Assembly (NCBI RefSeq): GCF_021431925.1
Contig: NZ_CP090371.1
Coordinates: forward strand, 1-64,000
DNA from: Halobaculum sp. CBA1158
Lineage (GTDB): Archaea > Halobacteriota > Halobacteria > Halobacteriales > Haloferacaceae
Direction of reading: 5' to 3'
DNA: 64,000 nt
This document shows, one piece after another, positions 43,937-54,472 of the stretch. The translations under genes and the position numbers were made by a program. The notes beneath the pieces are model-generated. The model ran no database searches. It saw nothing but the letters and a program-made list of their open reading frames with translations, and had not been told where the DNA came from. Position 1 is the first letter of the stretch. Every line of letters begins with the position of its first letter.

Positions 43937-44716
43937 ATGCTCGTCGCGTACCTGGTCCGAGGAGTCAAGGCCGGAGTCGTCGCGGGTGCCGTCTTCGGAC
44001 TGCTGTTGGCGCTCGTGGCGAATCCCGTGATCGCCTTCGCCGAGGACCGGGCGCACGGGACACACGACGGACAGGCCGGGGGCGCGTCCCACACAGACGA
44101 CCACCACGCGGGCGAGACGGCCGCCGGCGGCGGCCGGCTCCCCGTCACCGACGCCGTGAGCGTCGCCTCGGGCGTCCTCTGGGGGGTGCTGTTGGGCGTC
44201 GTCGGGTTCGGTGCGGCCTTCTACCTCCTCGAGCCGCTGGTGCCGGGCGGGCCGGCGCTGCGGAGCTACGCGTTCGCCGCCGCCGGGTTCGTCACCGTCT
44301 CGGGCGCGCCGTGGCTCGCGCTGCCGCCGTCGCCGCCGGGGACGACCCACGCCCTCGGCGTGCGGACGCGGCTGTTCGTCTACGCGGCGATGCTGCTCGC
44401 GGGCGCGCTGGCGACGGTCGGCGGCATGGCGCTGTACGACCGCCTCCGCGACCGCCGGGGTCGCGCGGTCGCCGCCGCGGCCGGGCTGGTGCCGCTGGCG
44501 GCGCTGCCGGCGGTGGCGGCCGCGCTCCCGTCGAACGCGACGCGGAGCGCGCTCGCGGAGCCGCTGGCCGCCGGCGTCACGGGGCTCGCCGTCTTCGGAC
44601 AGCTGCTCGTCTGGCTGCTGCTTGCGGGGGTACACGCCCGCCTCCACCGGAGCGACGGGCCGGAGGCGGGACCGACCGCGACGCCGCGGCCCGACCCCGG
44701 GGTGGGGGGCGACTGA
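43937..44716 (+). CDS. cbtA: CbtA cobalt transporter subunit
   Basis: 259 residues, five to six membrane helices. It begins MLVAYLVRGVKAGVVAGAVFG and has a His-rich outer loop HTDDHHAGE after an EDRAHGTHDG segment, both good metal ligands. Known to pair with CbtB in B12-regulated cobalt uptake in bacteria; here it leads the cobalamin locus. Its stop shares one base with the next start (TGATG). Confidence 0.9.
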   Translation: MLVAYLVRGVKAGVVAGAVFGLLLALVANPVIAFAEDRAHGTHDGQAGGASHTDDHHAGETAAGGGRLPVTDAVSVASGVLWGVLLGVVGFGAAFYLLEPLVPGGPALRSYAFAAAGFVTVSGAPWLALPPSPPGTTHALGVRTRLFVYAAMLLAGALATVGGMALYDRLRDRRGRAVAAAAGLVPLAALPAVAAALPSNATRSALAEPLAAGVTGLAVFGQLLVWLLLAGVHARLHRSDGPEAGPTATPRPDPGVGGD

Positions 44717-45075
44717 TGCGCGACCGTACCGACGACGTGTACGAGAACGGCTTCACCGACCACGTGCTCGTGTGCACGAACGCCCGCGATTCCGAGTACG
44801 CCGCCTGCGCGGACGCCCACGGCGAGGCGGTGCTCGAGGCGGTCCGGACGTGGCTGCGCGACCGCGGCGTGTTCTGGTCGCGGGTCCACGTCGCCGAGAC
44901 GAGCTGTCTCGGGCTGTGTAGCGCGGAGGGGACCGCCGTCGCGGTCCACCCCCGAGGGCGGTGGTTCTCCGACGTGACGCCCGGGGACGTCCCCGAACTG
45001 CTCGCGGACGTGTTCGGCTCCGAGGCCTCCGACCTGCGCGTCGGCCCGTCGCCGGAGGTGGTCGAGTCGCGGTAG
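44716..45075 (+). CDS. Thioredoxin-like 2Fe-2S ferredoxin
   Basis: 119 residues. Cysteines in CTNARDSEYAAC (Cys20, Cys31) and CLGLC (Cys64, Cys68) match the CX10-12C...CX3C pattern of thioredoxin-fold ferredoxins (COG3411). The same fold recurs at the C-terminus of CbiX in this locus. Overlapping start with cbtA shows coupling. Likely electron donor to a reductive step of corrin synthesis, by inference. Confidence 0.82.
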   Translation: MRDRTDDVYENGFTDHVLVCTNARDSEYAACADAHGEAVLEAVRTWLRDRGVFWSRVHVAETSCLGLCSAEGTAVAVHPRGRWFSDVTPGDVPELLADVFGSEASDLRVGPSPEVVESR

Positions 45076-49449: not shown

Positions 49450-50487
49450 ATGAGCGACGACACCACCTGCGGCGGTTCGACCGACGAGGCGAACAGCATG
49501 GAGACCACCGGGGCCGAGACGGGGACGAGCGCCTGCGGCGCGACGACCGACGGCGGGACGGCGACCGACACCGGCGGGTCGGGCGACGCGGCCCCCGGGT
49601 CGGCCTGCGGCGCGTCGTCGGGGTCCTCGGACGCCTCGGGGTCGTCCTCCTGCGGCGGCTCCTCGTCGGCGACCGACGAGAAGGTCGAGGCCACCGTCGA
49701 CGACTTCGAGGCCGACCCCGGACGGCTCGTCGCCGTCGGGCTCGGTCCCGGCCACGCCGACGGGATGACCGCGCGGGCGAAGTCCTCGCTGGCGGACGCC
49801 GAGCACATCGTCGGCTACACGACATACATCGACCTCATCCCCGACGAGATCACCGAGCAGGCCGACGAGCTGTACGACACGCCGATGTGTGGGGAGGTCT
49901 CCCGGACGGAGGAGGCGATCGACCGGGCGCTGGCCGGCCACGACGTGGCGATCGTCGGCTCGGGCGACCCGAACGTGTACGCGCTCGCCGGGCTCGCACT
50001 CGAGATCCTGGAGTCGAAGGGCGCGACCGCCTCGATGGTCGACTTCGAGGTCGTCCCCGGCGTGCCGGCGGCCCAGTCGTGCGGCGCGCGGCTGGGCGCG
50101 CCCCTCGTCAACGACTCGGTGTCGGTCTCGCTGTCGGACCACCTCACACCGATGGACGAGATCGAGTCCCGCCTCCACGCCGTCGCCGGCGAGGGGTTCA
50201 CGATCTCCATCTACAACCCCTGGAGCCGCAAGCGCCGCGAGAACTGGGAGACGGCCTGCGAGATCCTCCGCGAGCACCGGGCCGACGACACCCCCGTCGG
50301 CATCGTCCACGGCGCGGGCCGCGAGGACGAGGAGATTGAGATCACGACGCTGGGCGAACTGGAGTCGTACGGCGAGACGGACCTCGTGGACATGACGACG
50401 ACGGTCGTCGTCGGCAACGAGGAGACGTACGTGTGGGACGACCGGATGGTCACCCCGCGCGGCTACGAGACCAAGTACGACTACTGA
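49450..50487 (+). CDS. cbiH: CbiH-type precorrin-3B C17-methyltransferase, copy 2
   Basis: 345 residues. The methylase part (about 95 onward) has AVGLGPGHADGMTARAK, YTTYIDLI, VGSGDPNVYALAGLALE, SVSVSLSDHLTP and SIYNPWSRKRRENW, the canonical CbiH set. The first 80 residues are Gly/Ser/Thr low complexity with four Cys-Gly pairs (Cys7, about 29, 53 and 68), suggestive of metal binding. It is followed by the ferredoxin gene after 1 bp. Confidence 0.9.
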   Translation: MSDDTTCGGSTDEANSMETTGAETGTSACGATTDGGTATDTGGSGDAAPGSACGASSGSSDASGSSSCGGSSSATDEKVEATVDDFEADPGRLVAVGLGPGHADGMTARAKSSLADAEHIVGYTTYIDLIPDEITEQADELYDTPMCGEVSRTEEAIDRALAGHDVAIVGSGDPNVYALAGLALEILESKGATASMVDFEVVPGVPAAQSCGARLGAPLVNDSVSVSLSDHLTPMDEIESRLHAVAGEGFTISIYNPWSRKRRENWETACEILREHRADDTPVGIVHGAGREDEEIEITTLGELESYGETDLVDMTTTVVVGNEETYVWDDRMVTPRGYETKYDY

Positions 50488-50488
50488 G

Positions 50489-50767
50489 ATGACCGAGCCA
50501 ACCAGCTACACGGTGACGGTCGACCGCGACGCCTGCGACGGCGTGTTCGCGTGTCTCGTCCGCGACCCCCGGTTCGTCGAGGACGACGACGGCCTCGCGG
50601 GGATCGACGCCGCCGACGCCGAGGCGGTCGAGCGGACGGACGCGAGCGTGGCCGCCACGTTCGCCGACGACCGGATCGACGACGCGCGGCAGGCGGCCGC
50701 GGCGTGCCCGCTGGACGCGATCACCGTCGAGGCCGTCGAGGCCGCCGAGGCGGGGGCCGAGCCGTGA
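50489..50767 (+). CDS. Single-cluster ferredoxin in cobalamin operon
   Basis: 92 residues. Cysteines lie in RDACDGVFACLVRD (CX5C, Cys16 and Cys22) and AAACPLDAI (CP). Three ligands suggest a 3Fe-4S cluster, or a 4Fe-4S with one non-Cys ligand. Its stop overlaps the next GTG start (GTGA), tying its dose to that protein. May donate electrons to a corrin reductase; inferred from location. Confidence 0.8.
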   Translation: MTEPTSYTVTVDRDACDGVFACLVRDPRFVEDDDGLAGIDAADAEAVERTDASVAATFADDRIDDARQAAAACPLDAITVEAVEAAEAGAEP

Positions 50768-51522
50768 GCGACGCGGCCGACCCCGCCGCCGACGGCGAGT
50801 CCGTCGAGGCGGTCGACGACGCACCCCTCCCGGACGCCCCCGAGGACCTCCTCGCGGCGACGCCGGAGGCCGCGTACCTGTGGGGCCGCGTCGCCGCCGA
50901 CGGCTCGATCGCGGGCGACGAGGTGAGCGTCCGCGTCGGCGACGCCGAGGCCGCCGAGCGCGTCGCCGCCCTGTTCGGCGAGCGCGACGTGGACCGCGCC
51001 CGCGAGGTGACCGAGCGGGAGTACGCCCACAACACCGACGTGACCCGCACGAGCGACGAGTTCGTCGTCGCGGCGCAGACGCCCGCGGCCCGGCGTGCGG
51101 CCGCGGCGTTCGGCCTCCCCGCAGACGGCGACGAGTCCGGCGGCTACCGGTTCTCGGCGCTCGACGACCACCGCCGACAGCTCCTCCGCGGGCTCGTCGA
51201 GGGCTGTGGCACCGTCTGCTACAAGTCGGACGCGAACGCGGTGGGGATCTCGGTCGTCCACGACGACGAGGCGCTGCTCGCGACCGTCCGCGCCCACCTC
51301 GACGCCGCCCCGGTCGACGCGTCGTACGGCGACCTGAACGAGTCCTCCTCGGGCGGCTACTGGTTCGGCGTCGCCGACGACGCCGGCCCCGCGCTCGGGG
51401 AGTGGCTGTACGAGGGAAGTACGGAATCGGGGCTGTTCGCCCCGCAGCGCAGGCGCAAGACCCGACGGAGCATCGAGCGCGTCCGCGGGGACGGAACCGA
51501 CGCCGACGGAGGGGAGCCGTGA
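50764..51522 (+). CDS. LAGLIDADG-endonuclease-like protein in cobalamin operon
   Basis: 252 residues from GTG 50764, coupled by GTGA on both sides. Two repeats resemble a monomeric LAGLIDADG homing endonuclease. Motif 1 is LWGRVAADGSI (39-49), keeping the acidic D46. Motif 2 is LRGLVEGCGTV (141-151), where Cys148 replaces the second catalytic Asp. Following strands (AVGISVVHDDEALLATVRAH) and the C-terminal LGEWLYEG...RRRKTRRSI also fit the family. The lost acid, lack of intron or intein, and coupling to cbiX argue for a domesticated protein, perhaps DNA-binding or structural. The assignment is by motif reading only. Confidence 0.6.
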   Translation: MSDAADPAADGESVEAVDDAPLPDAPEDLLAATPEAAYLWGRVAADGSIAGDEVSVRVGDAEAAERVAALFGERDVDRAREVTEREYAHNTDVTRTSDEFVVAAQTPAARRAAAAFGLPADGDESGGYRFSALDDHRRQLLRGLVEGCGTVCYKSDANAVGISVVHDDEALLATVRAHLDAAPVDASYGDLNESSSGGYWFGVADDAGPALGEWLYEGSTESGLFAPQRRRKTRRSIERVRGDGTDADGGEP

Positions 51523-52748
51523 GCAGCGAGACCGCTCCCACGCCCTCGTCGCTGTCGGACGAGGCGGTGCTGCTCGTCGGCCACGGCTCCCGTCGCGAGA
51601 AGTCGAACGAGCAGGTCCGGGAGCTCGCCGCGGATCTGGAGTCCCGACTCGGCATCCCGGTCGACGCGGCGTTCCTCGAACTCGCGTCGCCGGCCATCGA
51701 CGAGGCGATCGCGGGGCTCGCGAACGCGGTTTCTCGCGTCTCGGTCGTCCACCTCTCCCTGTTCGCCGCGAGCCACGTGAAGAACGACGTGCCGCTCGCG
51801 GTGAAGCGCGCGCGCGGCGAGCACCCGGATCTGGAGATCGCGAACGGCTCGCATCTGGGCGTCCACCCGGCGCTGATCGACCTGCTCGACGACCGCGCGG
51901 CGGCCGTCGAGCGCGAGCTCGGCGTCGATCGCGCGGACGACGAGGTGGCAGTCGTGCTGTGTGCACGGGGCTCCTCGGACCCCGACGCCAACGCGGACGT
52001 GCACAAGCTCGCCCGCCTGCTGTACGAGGGCCGGGCGTTCGACGACGTGCGCGCCACCTTCATCGGCGTGACCGAGCCGACGCTGGACGACACGCTCCAC
52101 GCCGTCGCCCGCGAGCGACCGGACGCCGTGGTCGTCCTCCCGTACATGCTCGGCGACGGCGTCCTCACCGGTCGGATCAAGGAGGGTGCCGCGGAGTTCG
52201 ACGACGAGTACCCGTACGTCGCCGCCGCGCCGGGCGAGCCGCTGGGCACGGACCCGCGGCTGCTCGACGTGCTCTCGGACCGCTGGCAGGAGGCCCGCAC
52301 CGGGAGCGTCGAGATGTCCTGTGACACCTGCAAGTACAAGGTGGAACTCGACGGCTACGAGGCCGACGAGGGGGGCGCGCGGGCGATGCTGCGCGCGCTG
52401 AATCACAGCGCGGCCCACGCCGACCGCGAGGACGTGGACGACGATCCCCACGCCCACGACGCCCCCGCCAACCACGTCGCCGTCTGCACGAACCAGACGT
52501 GCGCCGCGGCCGGGTCGCCCGCGGTGCTGGAGCGCCTCCGGCAGGCCGTCCGCGACTCCGACGCCTGCGACGCCCGGGTCACCCGGACCTCCTGTCTCGA
52601 CCAGTGCGGCGACGGCCCGATGGTGGCCGTCTACCCCGACGGCGTCTGGTACGGCGGCGTCGGGGAGGACGACGCCGACCGCATCGTCTCCTCGCATCTC
52701 GACCGCGAGCGCATCGTCTCCGACCTCGTCCACGACACCCTACAGTAA
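51519..52748 (+). CDS. cbiX: CbiX cobaltochelatase fused to a ferredoxin-like domain
   Basis: Inserts Co2+ into sirohydrochlorin. 409 residues. Two CbiX halves: VLLVGHGSRREKSNEQV (catalytic His) to HLSLFAASHVKNDVP, then VVLCARGSSDPDANADV with LPYMLGDGVLTGRI. A zinc-ribbon-like CDTCKYK follows, then a His-rich linker (HSAAHADREDVDDDPHAHD). The C-terminal thioredoxin-like 2Fe-2S module has CTNQTC, DACDA and CLDQC. The fusion hints that metal insertion is coupled to a redox or sensing role. GTG start, GTGA overlap. Confidence 0.92.
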   Translation: MSSETAPTPSSLSDEAVLLVGHGSRREKSNEQVRELAADLESRLGIPVDAAFLELASPAIDEAIAGLANAVSRVSVVHLSLFAASHVKNDVPLAVKRARGEHPDLEIANGSHLGVHPALIDLLDDRAAAVERELGVDRADDEVAVVLCARGSSDPDANADVHKLARLLYEGRAFDDVRATFIGVTEPTLDDTLHAVARERPDAVVVLPYMLGDGVLTGRIKEGAAEFDDEYPYVAAAPGEPLGTDPRLLDVLSDRWQEARTGSVEMSCDTCKYKVELDGYEADEGGARAMLRALNHSAAHADREDVDDDPHAHDAPANHVAVCTNQTCAAAGSPAVLERLRQAVRDSDACDARVTRTSCLDQCGDGPMVAVYPDGVWYGGVGEDDADRIVSSHLDRERIVSDLVHDTLQ

Positions 52749-52749
52749 C

Positions 52750-53118
52750 ATGAGCTGTCTCGAACTCGAAGCGCTGCGACTCGGCCTGATGACCGTCCTC
52801 GGCACCGACGACCGCGCCGCCCGCGAGCACGCCGAGAAGGAACTGGAGGGCGAGCTCGAGGGGCCGATCGAGGGGCTCGCGAGCGCCGAATCGCTCGACG
52901 AACTCCGCCGGCACCTCGACGCCGCGCTCGTCGACCTCGAGGAGGAGGTGGCGACGCTCGACGACGCCGACCCCGAGGCCGACTACGTCCGCGGCCGCCT
53001 CGTCGCCGTCCGCGACGCCGAGCGAAGTCTCGCGCGCCTGGCCGACCACGGCGAGGGGCTGCTCGACGGGCTCGGCGAAACGCACCACGACCTGCACGAT
53101 GCCTTCCCCGTCGAGTAG
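52750..53118 (+). CDS. DUF3209 family protein
   Basis: 122 residues, acidic helical protein, MSCLELEALRLGLMTVLGTDD. It begins 1 bp after cbiX. I know DUF3209 from haloarchaeal cobalamin loci only, function unknown. One Cys near the N-terminus and C-terminal His residues (GETHHDLHDAFP) could bind metal. It overlaps the beta-propeller gene by 20 bp. Confidence 0.75.
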   Translation: MSCLELEALRLGLMTVLGTDDRAAREHAEKELEGELEGPIEGLASAESLDELRRHLDAALVDLEEEVATLDDADPEADYVRGRLVAVRDAERSLARLADHGEGLLDGLGETHHDLHDAFPVE

Positions 53119-54472
53119 CGAGGCGGCCGCCGCCGACGGGCTCTCGGGCCACGCGAGGCGGTCGCTCGACGCGGTCGACCCCTGCGGGTCGCGCCAGCGC
53201 GGCCGCCGTTCTGCCGTCGCGCTCCTCCCCGAACTGGTCGTCGTCGGCACCGCCGGCGGCGACCTCCGGGCGTTCGAGCGCGACGGCGACGGCGGTCTCG
53301 GCTCGGAGCGCTGGCGCGTCGCCGGCGAGGAGCCGGTCGTCGCGCTCGCGCCGTTCGACGGCGGCGTCCTCGCGGGCACCCGCGGCGAGCGCGGCCTGCT
53401 CCGCCTCGTCGACGCCGACGGCACGGAGCGCTGGCGGGTCGAGGCGGCGGCCGACGTGGGGTCGCCGGCCAAGGAGACCCGCTTCTGGTACCCGTTCGTC
53501 GCGGCGCTGGCGACGGACGGCGACCGGGCGTATGCGGCCGCCCGGCGGTACGAACGCCGTTCGGGCGGCGACGACGGCGACGGGGAGACCGACTCCGCCC
53601 GTCGCTTCGAGAGCGTCGTGTACGCCGTCGAACCGGACGGGACGGTCGCGTGGCGCTCCCCCGCCCGCGCCTCGCCGATCGCGCTGGCGACGGACGGCGA
53701 CCGACTCGCGGTCGCGTACAACCGCTGTCCCGAGCCGGCGGCCCACGACGCCGGCCTCGTCGTGCTCGACGCCGCCGCCGGCGACGAGCGGCTCCGGTGG
53801 GACCCGCGGGTCGGGGTCGGCTCCGACGCCGCGACTCCCGCGGGTCGGGACGCGGACTCCGGCACCGCCGACCGGGGCCGCGCGGTCGGCGACGTCGCGC
53901 TCACCCCCGACGGCTACGCGGTCGCGAGCCACGCCGACCGCCGCGGGTACCTCCTCGACCGCGACGGCGGGGTGACCGCGACGCTCGAGCTGGGTGCGAC
54001 GGCGACGTGCGACCCGGCCGACGGTGGCGAGCCCGAGCGGGCGTACGCCTACCCGAACCACGTCGTCGCCGGCGACGGCGTCGTCGCGTTCGTCCTCGGG
54101 AACACCTTCCCGGTCGAGGGGCGCGAGACCGACGCTCGCCACCCCGCCGAACACACCGCCGTCGGGGTCGACCCCGACGGAACGGAGCGCTGGCGGGCTC
54201 CAGTCGGGGGATTCGCGCACCACGTCGCGAGCGACGGGGACGCGCTCGCGGTCCCGACGGCGCAGCACTTCCGCGAGCGCGACCCGTCCGTCCACGGCGT
54301 CCGACTGATCGACCTCGCGGACGGAAGGGCACAGCGCCGGCGGACCGAGGGCGTCGCCGCCGCCGTCGCGCTCGGGGGCGAGGCGGTCGCGGCCGTCGAG
54401 GAGCCGGTCGCGTACCACGACGGCGACGCCGACGGCCACGGGGCGTATCGCCTGCACGGCTGGGGGCGGTAG
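53099..54472 (+). CDS. Cytosolic PQQ-like beta-propeller in cobalamin operon
   Basis: 457 residues with no signal peptide. Repeated blades have the pattern 'DGTERWRVE', 'DGTVAWRSP', 'DGTERWRAP', spaced roughly 50-130 residues apart, as in BamB/PQQ-type propellers. FVLGNTFPVEGRE and several DGDxLAVA strands support the fold. No cofactor-binding site can be named. It overlaps DUF3209 by 20 bp and converges with chlID. Its role in B12 synthesis is unknown. Confidence 0.65.
   Translation: MPSPSSSEAAAADGLSGHARRSLDAVDPCGSRQRGRRSAVALLPELVVVGTAGGDLRAFERDGDGGLGSERWRVAGEEPVVALAPFDGGVLAGTRGERGLLRLVDADGTERWRVEAAADVGSPAKETRFWYPFVAALATDGDRAYAAARRYERRSGGDDGDGETDSARRFESVVYAVEPDGTVAWRSPARASPIALATDGDRLAVAYNRCPEPAAHDAGLVVLDAAAGDERLRWDPRVGVGSDAATPAGRDADSGTADRGRAVGDVALTPDGYAVASHADRRGYLLDRDGGVTATLELGATATCDPADGGEPERAYAYPNHVVAGDGVVAFVLGNTFPVEGRETDARHPAEHTAVGVDPDGTERWRAPVGGFAHHVASDGDALAVPTAQHFRERDPSVHGVRLIDLADGRAQRRRTEGVAAAVALGGEAVAAVEEPVAYHDGDADGHGAYRLHGWGR

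Follow-up and report, generated by a model that had tools for sequence, protein, structure and literature searches.

Haloarchaea make vitamin B12 in air with enzymes that belong to an oxygen-sensitive route, the cobalt-early one, and two steps of this route, together with four genes of the cluster, are without an assigned function. Aerobic synthesis of cobalamin with enzymes of the anaerobic branch has been described for Halobacterium (PMC3403918). In Haloferax volcanii, the four cobalamin-cluster genes in question are HVO_B0052, HVO_B0053, HVO_B0055 and HVO_B0056, and the main text of PMC8305020 puts forward the same four as candidates for the two pathway gaps. Two further systems bear on the present locus: the actinobacterial protein WhiA, which controls a regulon jointly with the [4Fe-4S] protein WhiB (PMC4850268), and CbiX-L of Bacillus megaterium, for which the His-rich extension has been proposed to serve in the storage and delivery of metal (PMC7689651). 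Here we describe one of the four genes as encoding a predicted LAGLIDADG fold that appears to be catalytically dead; a separate group of B12 producers has none of the four, and the finding points to an accessory role in redox or cobalt handling.

The gene and its cobalamin cluster

The window, i.e., the whole stretch of 64,000 nucleotides of Halobaculum sp. CBA1158 that was analysed, carries the cluster cbiT-cbiL-cbiF-cbiG-cbiH1-cbiH2-fdx-LAG-cbiX-DUF3209-PQQ, followed by chlID (on the minus strand), cobN and cbiC. The gene under study is named LAG, and the ferredoxin gene before it fdx. The central genes are the following:

49450..50487, plus strand: cbiH2 (CbiH/CobJ; TIGR01466, E 9e-94), directly upstream of fdx
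50489..50767, plus strand: fdx, three-cysteine ferredoxin (C[DE]G[IV]FAC...CP), HVO_B0056 by position, GTGA-coupled to LAG
50764..51522, plus strand: LAG, gene for a LAGLIDADG-fold protein, HVO_B0055 orthologue by position; GTG start, 252 aa
51519..52748, plus strand: cbiX, two-lobed CbiX with an MSCDTC motif and a C-terminal 2Fe-2S tail
52467..52691, plus strand: the 2Fe-2S thioredoxin-like ferredoxin tail of CbiX (aa 317-391)
52750..53118, plus strand: DUF3209 gene, which tracks with 2Fe-2S-tailed CbiX

The preliminary description had LAG coupled by GTGA to a ferredoxin gene before it and to cbiX after it, and both overlaps are present in the sequence, at 50764-50767 (ferredoxin stop) and 51519-51522 (cbiX start); the fdx/LAG overlap measures 4 (or 8) bases in nearly all orthologues. 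LAG belongs to the HVO_B0055 family, with the same sequence family and a locus between ferredoxin and cbiX, the identity of HVO_B0055 itself being given by position. The gene, and its membership of the cobalamin cluster without an assigned function, are thus already known (PMC8305020), but the main text of that paper says nothing, on HVO_B0055, about a LAGLIDADG fold, a dead active site, residues C152 and H89, the three-cysteine neighbour or the pattern of absence. Orthologues are named in plasmid records and were confirmed by sequence; PGAP calls them “cobalamin biosynthesis protein” (e.g., WP_222923807.1 of Halobaculum roseum), while WP_012660184.1 of Halorubrum lacusprofundi is annotated as “hypothetical protein”. 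From cbiT to DUF3209, no gene evolves faster than LAG, whose median identity to the window gene is 51% (fdx, 60%; cbiX, 77%).

Two other parts of the cluster are recorded in passing. A gene for a CbtA-type cobalt transporter (43937-44716) and one for a DUF1636-like small protein (44716-45075) lie upstream of cbiT, the location of the latter shifting in other genomes. The gene for a PQQ-type beta-propeller (53099-54472) overlaps DUF3209, is fast evolving (median identity 45%) and is missing from operons that lack LAG; one record names the gene in that slot a transcriptional regulator.

A predicted two-domain LAGLIDADG fold

Sequence searches return the fold at the margin of detection. Pfam LAGLIDADG_3 matches the window protein below threshold (E 0.0073; 17 bits against a cut-off of 22.5) and 37 of 65 orthologues, with a best E of 2.7e-5. 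Searches of the PDB sequences (phmmer and profile) gave no LAGLIDADG match, NCBIfam and PADLOC gave no match, and PHROGs gave weak endonuclease matches only.

The AlphaFold model, built from 65 sequences, has a mean pLDDT of 88.4 and a pTM of 0.87. Its first half runs helix-strand-strand-helix-strand-strand-helix and its second half follows the same order, with one strand poorly formed, so that the predicted structure consists of two alpha-beta-beta-alpha-beta-beta-alpha domains joined at the LAGLIDADG helices. In a Foldseek search against the PDB, the top 32 chains are all LAGLIDADG proteins, among them I-Tsp061I (8e-8), PI-SceI, WhiA, I-DmoI and I-SceI, and the next match has an E of 0.12; a viral library agrees. 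With TM-scores of about 0.4-0.53 and an rmsd of 5-7, what is matched is the fold as such rather than one particular relative. The two LAGLIDADG-like repeats seen beforehand in the sequence are thus borne out by structure prediction.

Active site and conserved residues

The helices and the residues discussed below are located as follows:

50863..50901, plus strand: first LAGLIDADG helix (aa 34-46); its final position, 46, is Asp in the window protein and variable in the family
51028..51030, plus strand: codon of His89, invariant in 65 of 65 orthologues and in four further divergent copies
51154..51207, plus strand: second LAGLIDADG helix (aa 131-148); its final residue, where the catalytic acid would be expected, is Cys148
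51217..51219, plus strand: codon of Cys152, invariant in 65 of 65 orthologues and in four further divergent copies

In homing endonucleases, each LAGLIDADG helix ends on a conserved acid. In the alignment of 65 orthologues, position 46 is occupied by D in 37, S in 17, G in five and A in four, and position 148 by C in 63 and A in two; in the four divergent copies, position 148 is C in genomes G014, G021 and G182 and T in G173, i.e., three genomes have replaced Cys148 (two by Ala, one by Thr). The variability of position 46 and the Cys at 148 mean that a conserved catalytic acid pair is absent from LAG. The preliminary description, which had the first Asp kept and a Cys at the second site, placed both residues rightly, but across the family D46 varies, while C148 is nearly conserved. 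To judge from these alignments, LAG is a dead, non-nucleolytic endonuclease. Also invariant in the 65 are W40, R142, G143, E146, G149, F201, R229, K232 and S236.

A metal site formed by Cys152, Cys148 and His89 is possible; this candidate site is suggested by conservation and by the topology of the fold. The use of Cys148 in binding metal or corrin had been proposed beforehand and may be correct, but that residue is lost in three genomes and C152 and H89 never are.

That LAG is a homing endonuclease, still mobile or carried along in the operon as a passenger, is scarcely credible: the LAGLIDADG fold speaks for it, but the acid pair is not conserved, LAG is a free-standing gene outside any intron, intein or mobile insertion, its position is fixed in 68 of 68 loci, the copy number is one per genome as a rule, no copy occurs in 178 haloarchaea without CbiC, and a phage collection gave no match.

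The fold could also be one that no longer cuts DNA and still binds it. In such a scheme, LAG would be a DNA-binding regulator of the cobalamin locus, with the three-cysteine ferredoxin as its Fe-S sensor partner, comparable to WhiA and WhiB. WhiA is among the top Foldseek matches (3hyj, 3hyi, 8dy9), the joint control by WhiA and WhiB provides a precedent (PMC4850268), the gene that overlaps LAG upstream encodes an Fe-S protein, and R229 and K232 are invariant in the last helix. We nevertheless consider a regulator unlikely. WhiA/DUF199 proteins combine the LAGLIDADG unit with a C-terminal HTH, and LAG has neither an HTH nor another DNA-binding domain beside its LAGLIDADG unit, its secondary structure being accounted for by the two LAGLIDADG domains. 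The protein is strongly acidic (though all its neighbours are too), and strand parity would put C152, K/R154, G161, S163 and V165 on the saddle of domain 2 and the conserved acid E99 on that of domain 1, a surface that would not suit DNA.

Distribution and pathway link

LAG is present in 204 of the 391 genomes of the class, and a search of 345 genomes of the phylum with profile A2 did not find it beyond the haloarchaeal order. If CbiC is used to mark synthesis of the corrin ring, LAG is restricted to genomes that make that ring: CbiC occurs in all 40 genomes with LAG that were tested and in nine of 187 genomes without LAG (Fisher p 4e-36, descriptive only, as species are non-independent). The gene is almost confined to B12 loci, genome G021 being the single exception, and the order cbiH2-fdx-LAG-cbiX is kept without exception in 68 of 68 fetched loci, which include at least two pairs that are the same contig. 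The earlier view that LAG does not reside in an intron or intein, being fixed instead inside a biosynthetic operon, is thereby upheld by the survey of gene neighbourhoods, which did not find the gene mainly outside B12 loci.

CbiD (EC 2.1.1.195) and CbiJ (EC 1.3.1.106), the missing activities for which the four genes were suggested (PMC8305020), were found in none of 80 haloarchaea, a set that leaves out G128, G268, G318, G317 and G359. LAG, with fdx, might fill one of these gaps, since it occurs in nearly all corrin makers and HVO_B0055 is a named candidate in the main text of that paper. An analogue of CbiD or CbiJ should be present in every pathway genome that lacks them, but G001, G007 and G052 have none of LAG, CbiD and CbiJ and keep cbiT, L, F, G, H1, H2, cbiC and cobN. 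G001 and G007 are also without fdx, DUF3209 and the PQQ gene. The open reading frames checked around the G007 operon include no alternative enzyme, so that, as a general solution to the two published gaps, these genes are poorly placed. Moreover, the LAGLIDADG fold is not known to have methyltransferase or reductase activity. We therefore hold a gap-filling role to be improbable, although the lineages without LAG could have a different, unseen filler.

The former DNA-binding saddle might, alternatively, hold an unstable cobalt-corrinoid intermediate and pass it between enzymes. A chaperone of this kind for tetrapyrroles or corrins would suit the conserved small and aromatic residues of domain 2 (G161, S163, W200, F201), the strict co-occurrence with the pathway and a rate covariation that is closest with CbiH1 and CbiG; LAG is, however, absent from producers that have the same CbiH1/CbiG/CbiF set, and we rate this role as rather less probable than regulation, if not as improbable as gap filling.

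Cobalamin producers that lack LAG

The nine genomes with CbiC and without LAG are G315, G001, G007, G128, G268, G318, G317, G359 and G052. G315 is an incomplete assembly with no CbiX at all. In G001, G007, G128, G268 and G318, cbiH2 runs directly into a CbiX that has a His-rich tail and no 2Fe-2S tail, and in G317 and G359 the His-tailed CbiX is located behind cobN. These seven all lack LAG, the three-cysteine ferredoxin, DUF3209 and the CbiX 2Fe-2S tail: a genome-wide search for DUF3209 left one sub-threshold match, in G268, and the search for the cobalamin-type ferredoxin returned weak paralogues at most. G052, by comparison, retains fdx, the 2Fe-2S CbiX and DUF3209, and the precise place of LAG is taken there by a His-tailed CbiX, which is suggestive given the metal storage and delivery proposed for such a tail (PMC7689651). 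G371 is the reverse: DUF3209 is missing there, and fdx and LAG occur together with a His-tailed CbiX.

Haloarchaeal CbiX in general has one of two tail types, 2Fe-2S or very His-rich (loci L100, L101, L112, L115, L117, L119, L121, L071 and L103:6664-7641), and the His content of the tail is bimodal (20-28% vs 4-7%). The His-tailed proteins form one clade (99/95; some members on long branches). In a tree of cbiF+cbiG+cbiH2, the operons without LAG fall outside the group with LAG (96), save for G052, which is nested within it, and only two changes of LAG state are needed. The correlation of LAG absence is real but has few evolutionary events behind it, and the absence of LAG, the His-tailed CbiX and anaerobic life may consequently share a history and not a cause.

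COX1, the heme-copper oxidase gene, is present in 35 of 35 tested genomes with LAG; among the LAG-less producers with cobalamin genes, it is missing from G001, G007 and G128 only, being present in G317, G359, G268, G318 and G052. A rule by which absence of LAG marks a strict anaerobe is thus ruled out, and aerobic adaptation is no more than a lead.

Two apparent gene pairs, and gene retention in broken operons

The motif C-[DE]-G-[IV]-F-A-C...CP occurs in 69 of 69 fdx orthologues, the second canonical cysteine being missing. With three cysteines in this arrangement, a 3Fe-4S cluster is favoured, or else a 4Fe-4S cluster in which one site is open, and the fdx cluster is, on its motif, probably one of these; LAG could possibly supply a ligand to it. 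The cobalamin-type fdx (E <= 1e-12) was found in 19 of 19 tested genomes with LAG and in G052, and in no other genome without LAG.

Partial correlations of distances are 0.65 for CbiX-DUF3209, 0.37 for LAG-CbiH1, 0.17 for LAG-fdx and 0.02 for LAG-CbiX. The distances of LAG are untied to those of CbiX and closer to CbiH1 than to fdx, which leaves uncertain the step that LAG serves; together with G371, these values also weaken the idea that LAG is strictly tied to the 2Fe-2S CbiX. On Thermus plasmids, CbiX(2Fe-2S) and DUF3209 are adjacent, without LAG or fdx beside them, and CbiD is present in the fuller of two clusters. By these correlations and the Thermus plasmids, it looks as if CbiX-2Fe2S/DUF3209, also bacterial, and fdx/LAG, haloarchaeal, are two pairs and not one block. 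DUF3209 accompanies the 2Fe-2S CbiX in haloarchaea and on the Thermus plasmids (window 52750-53118; L158:10102-10464; L159:6346-6711), and is absent where the CbiX tail is His-rich only.

Two genomes have lost the linkage. In G014, the cluster is in two parts, cbiT-L-F-G-fdx and cbiH1-cbiH2-LAG-cbiX-DUF3209; in G021, it is spread over three contigs, carrying cbiT-L-F-G-H1-H2-fdx, LAG and cbiX-DUF3209, respectively. Both retain the cobalamin-type fdx, LAG, the 2Fe-2S CbiX and DUF3209, and that these genes have outlasted their linkage speaks for a functional connection rather than hitch-hiking. The divergent LAG of G021 (L154:10444-13453) is flanked, away from the B12 operon, by two CDF (cation-efflux) transporters, with a rhodanese gene adjoining.

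Proposed role

At roughly even odds (a probability of about 0.5), we propose that LAG is a domesticated, catalytically dead LAGLIDADG accessory of the ferredoxin, acting in redox or cobalt handling during cobalt-early cobalamin synthesis in haloarchaea. LAG would work together with the coupled three-cysteine ferredoxin; close to the former active site, the invariant Cys152 and His89, in most cases with Cys148, may bind a metal ion or an Fe-S cluster, or dock the ferredoxin. LAG would in this way supply electrons, or maintain cobalt in an available and reduced state, early in a nominally anaerobic pathway that runs in air, candidates for the step being metal insertion by CbiX and ring contraction by CbiH/CbiG.

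We count in favour of the accessory role the predicted fold with its dead active site, the link to CbiC, the synteny in 68 of 68 loci, the overlap with fdx, the occurrence of the cobalamin-type fdx in all tested genomes with LAG, the missing second cysteine of fdx, the retention in G014 and G021, the His-rich CbiX tails of the producers without LAG, the aerobic cobalamin synthesis of Halobacterium (PMC3403918), the His-tailed CbiX in the LAG slot of G052, the CDF transporters of G021 and the COX1 pattern. Against it, we count that there are two state changes only, the gene content of G371, the fdx without LAG in G052, the weak covariation of LAG with CbiX and fdx, the presence of COX1 in several LAG-less producers and the losses of C148. 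A wider proposal is that a homing-endonuclease fold has come to serve an open-site (three-cysteine) ferredoxin as its partner in handling metal or Fe-S, and that the pair lets aerobic haloarchaea run the “anaerobic” cobalt-early pathway in oxygen, while anaerobic relatives do without it; this we offer tentatively, as a good deal less probable than the accessory role as such.

Comparison with known systems

The closest likeness is to HVO_B0055, the operon slot being identical, between the ferredoxin HVO_B0056 and cbiX1 (HVO_B0054), and no difference was seen. The CbiX-L chelatase of Bacillus megaterium, with its C-terminal 4Fe-4S (MXCXXC) and His-rich extension, resembles the His-tailed CbiX of the haloarchaea in which LAG is missing; the fold of LAG is unrelated to it, and LAG occurs where the His tail is absent, with G371 as the exception. 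With the LAGLIDADG homing endonucleases (I-Tsp061I, 2dch; PI-SceI; I-DmoI; I-SceI), LAG has in common the two-domain architecture with its LAGLIDADG helices, but it differs in lacking the conserved catalytic acid pair and in being fixed in a biosynthetic operon, outside introns and inteins. WhiA/DUF199, like LAG, is a degenerate LAGLIDADG unit with a cellular role and an association with an Fe-S protein (PMC4850268), whereas LAG has no HTH, is archaeal, resides in a cobalamin operon and has a ferredoxin-type neighbour instead of a Wbl-type one. LAG would thus join WhiA as an instance in which the fold of a homing endonuclease has been retained for a task of the cell.
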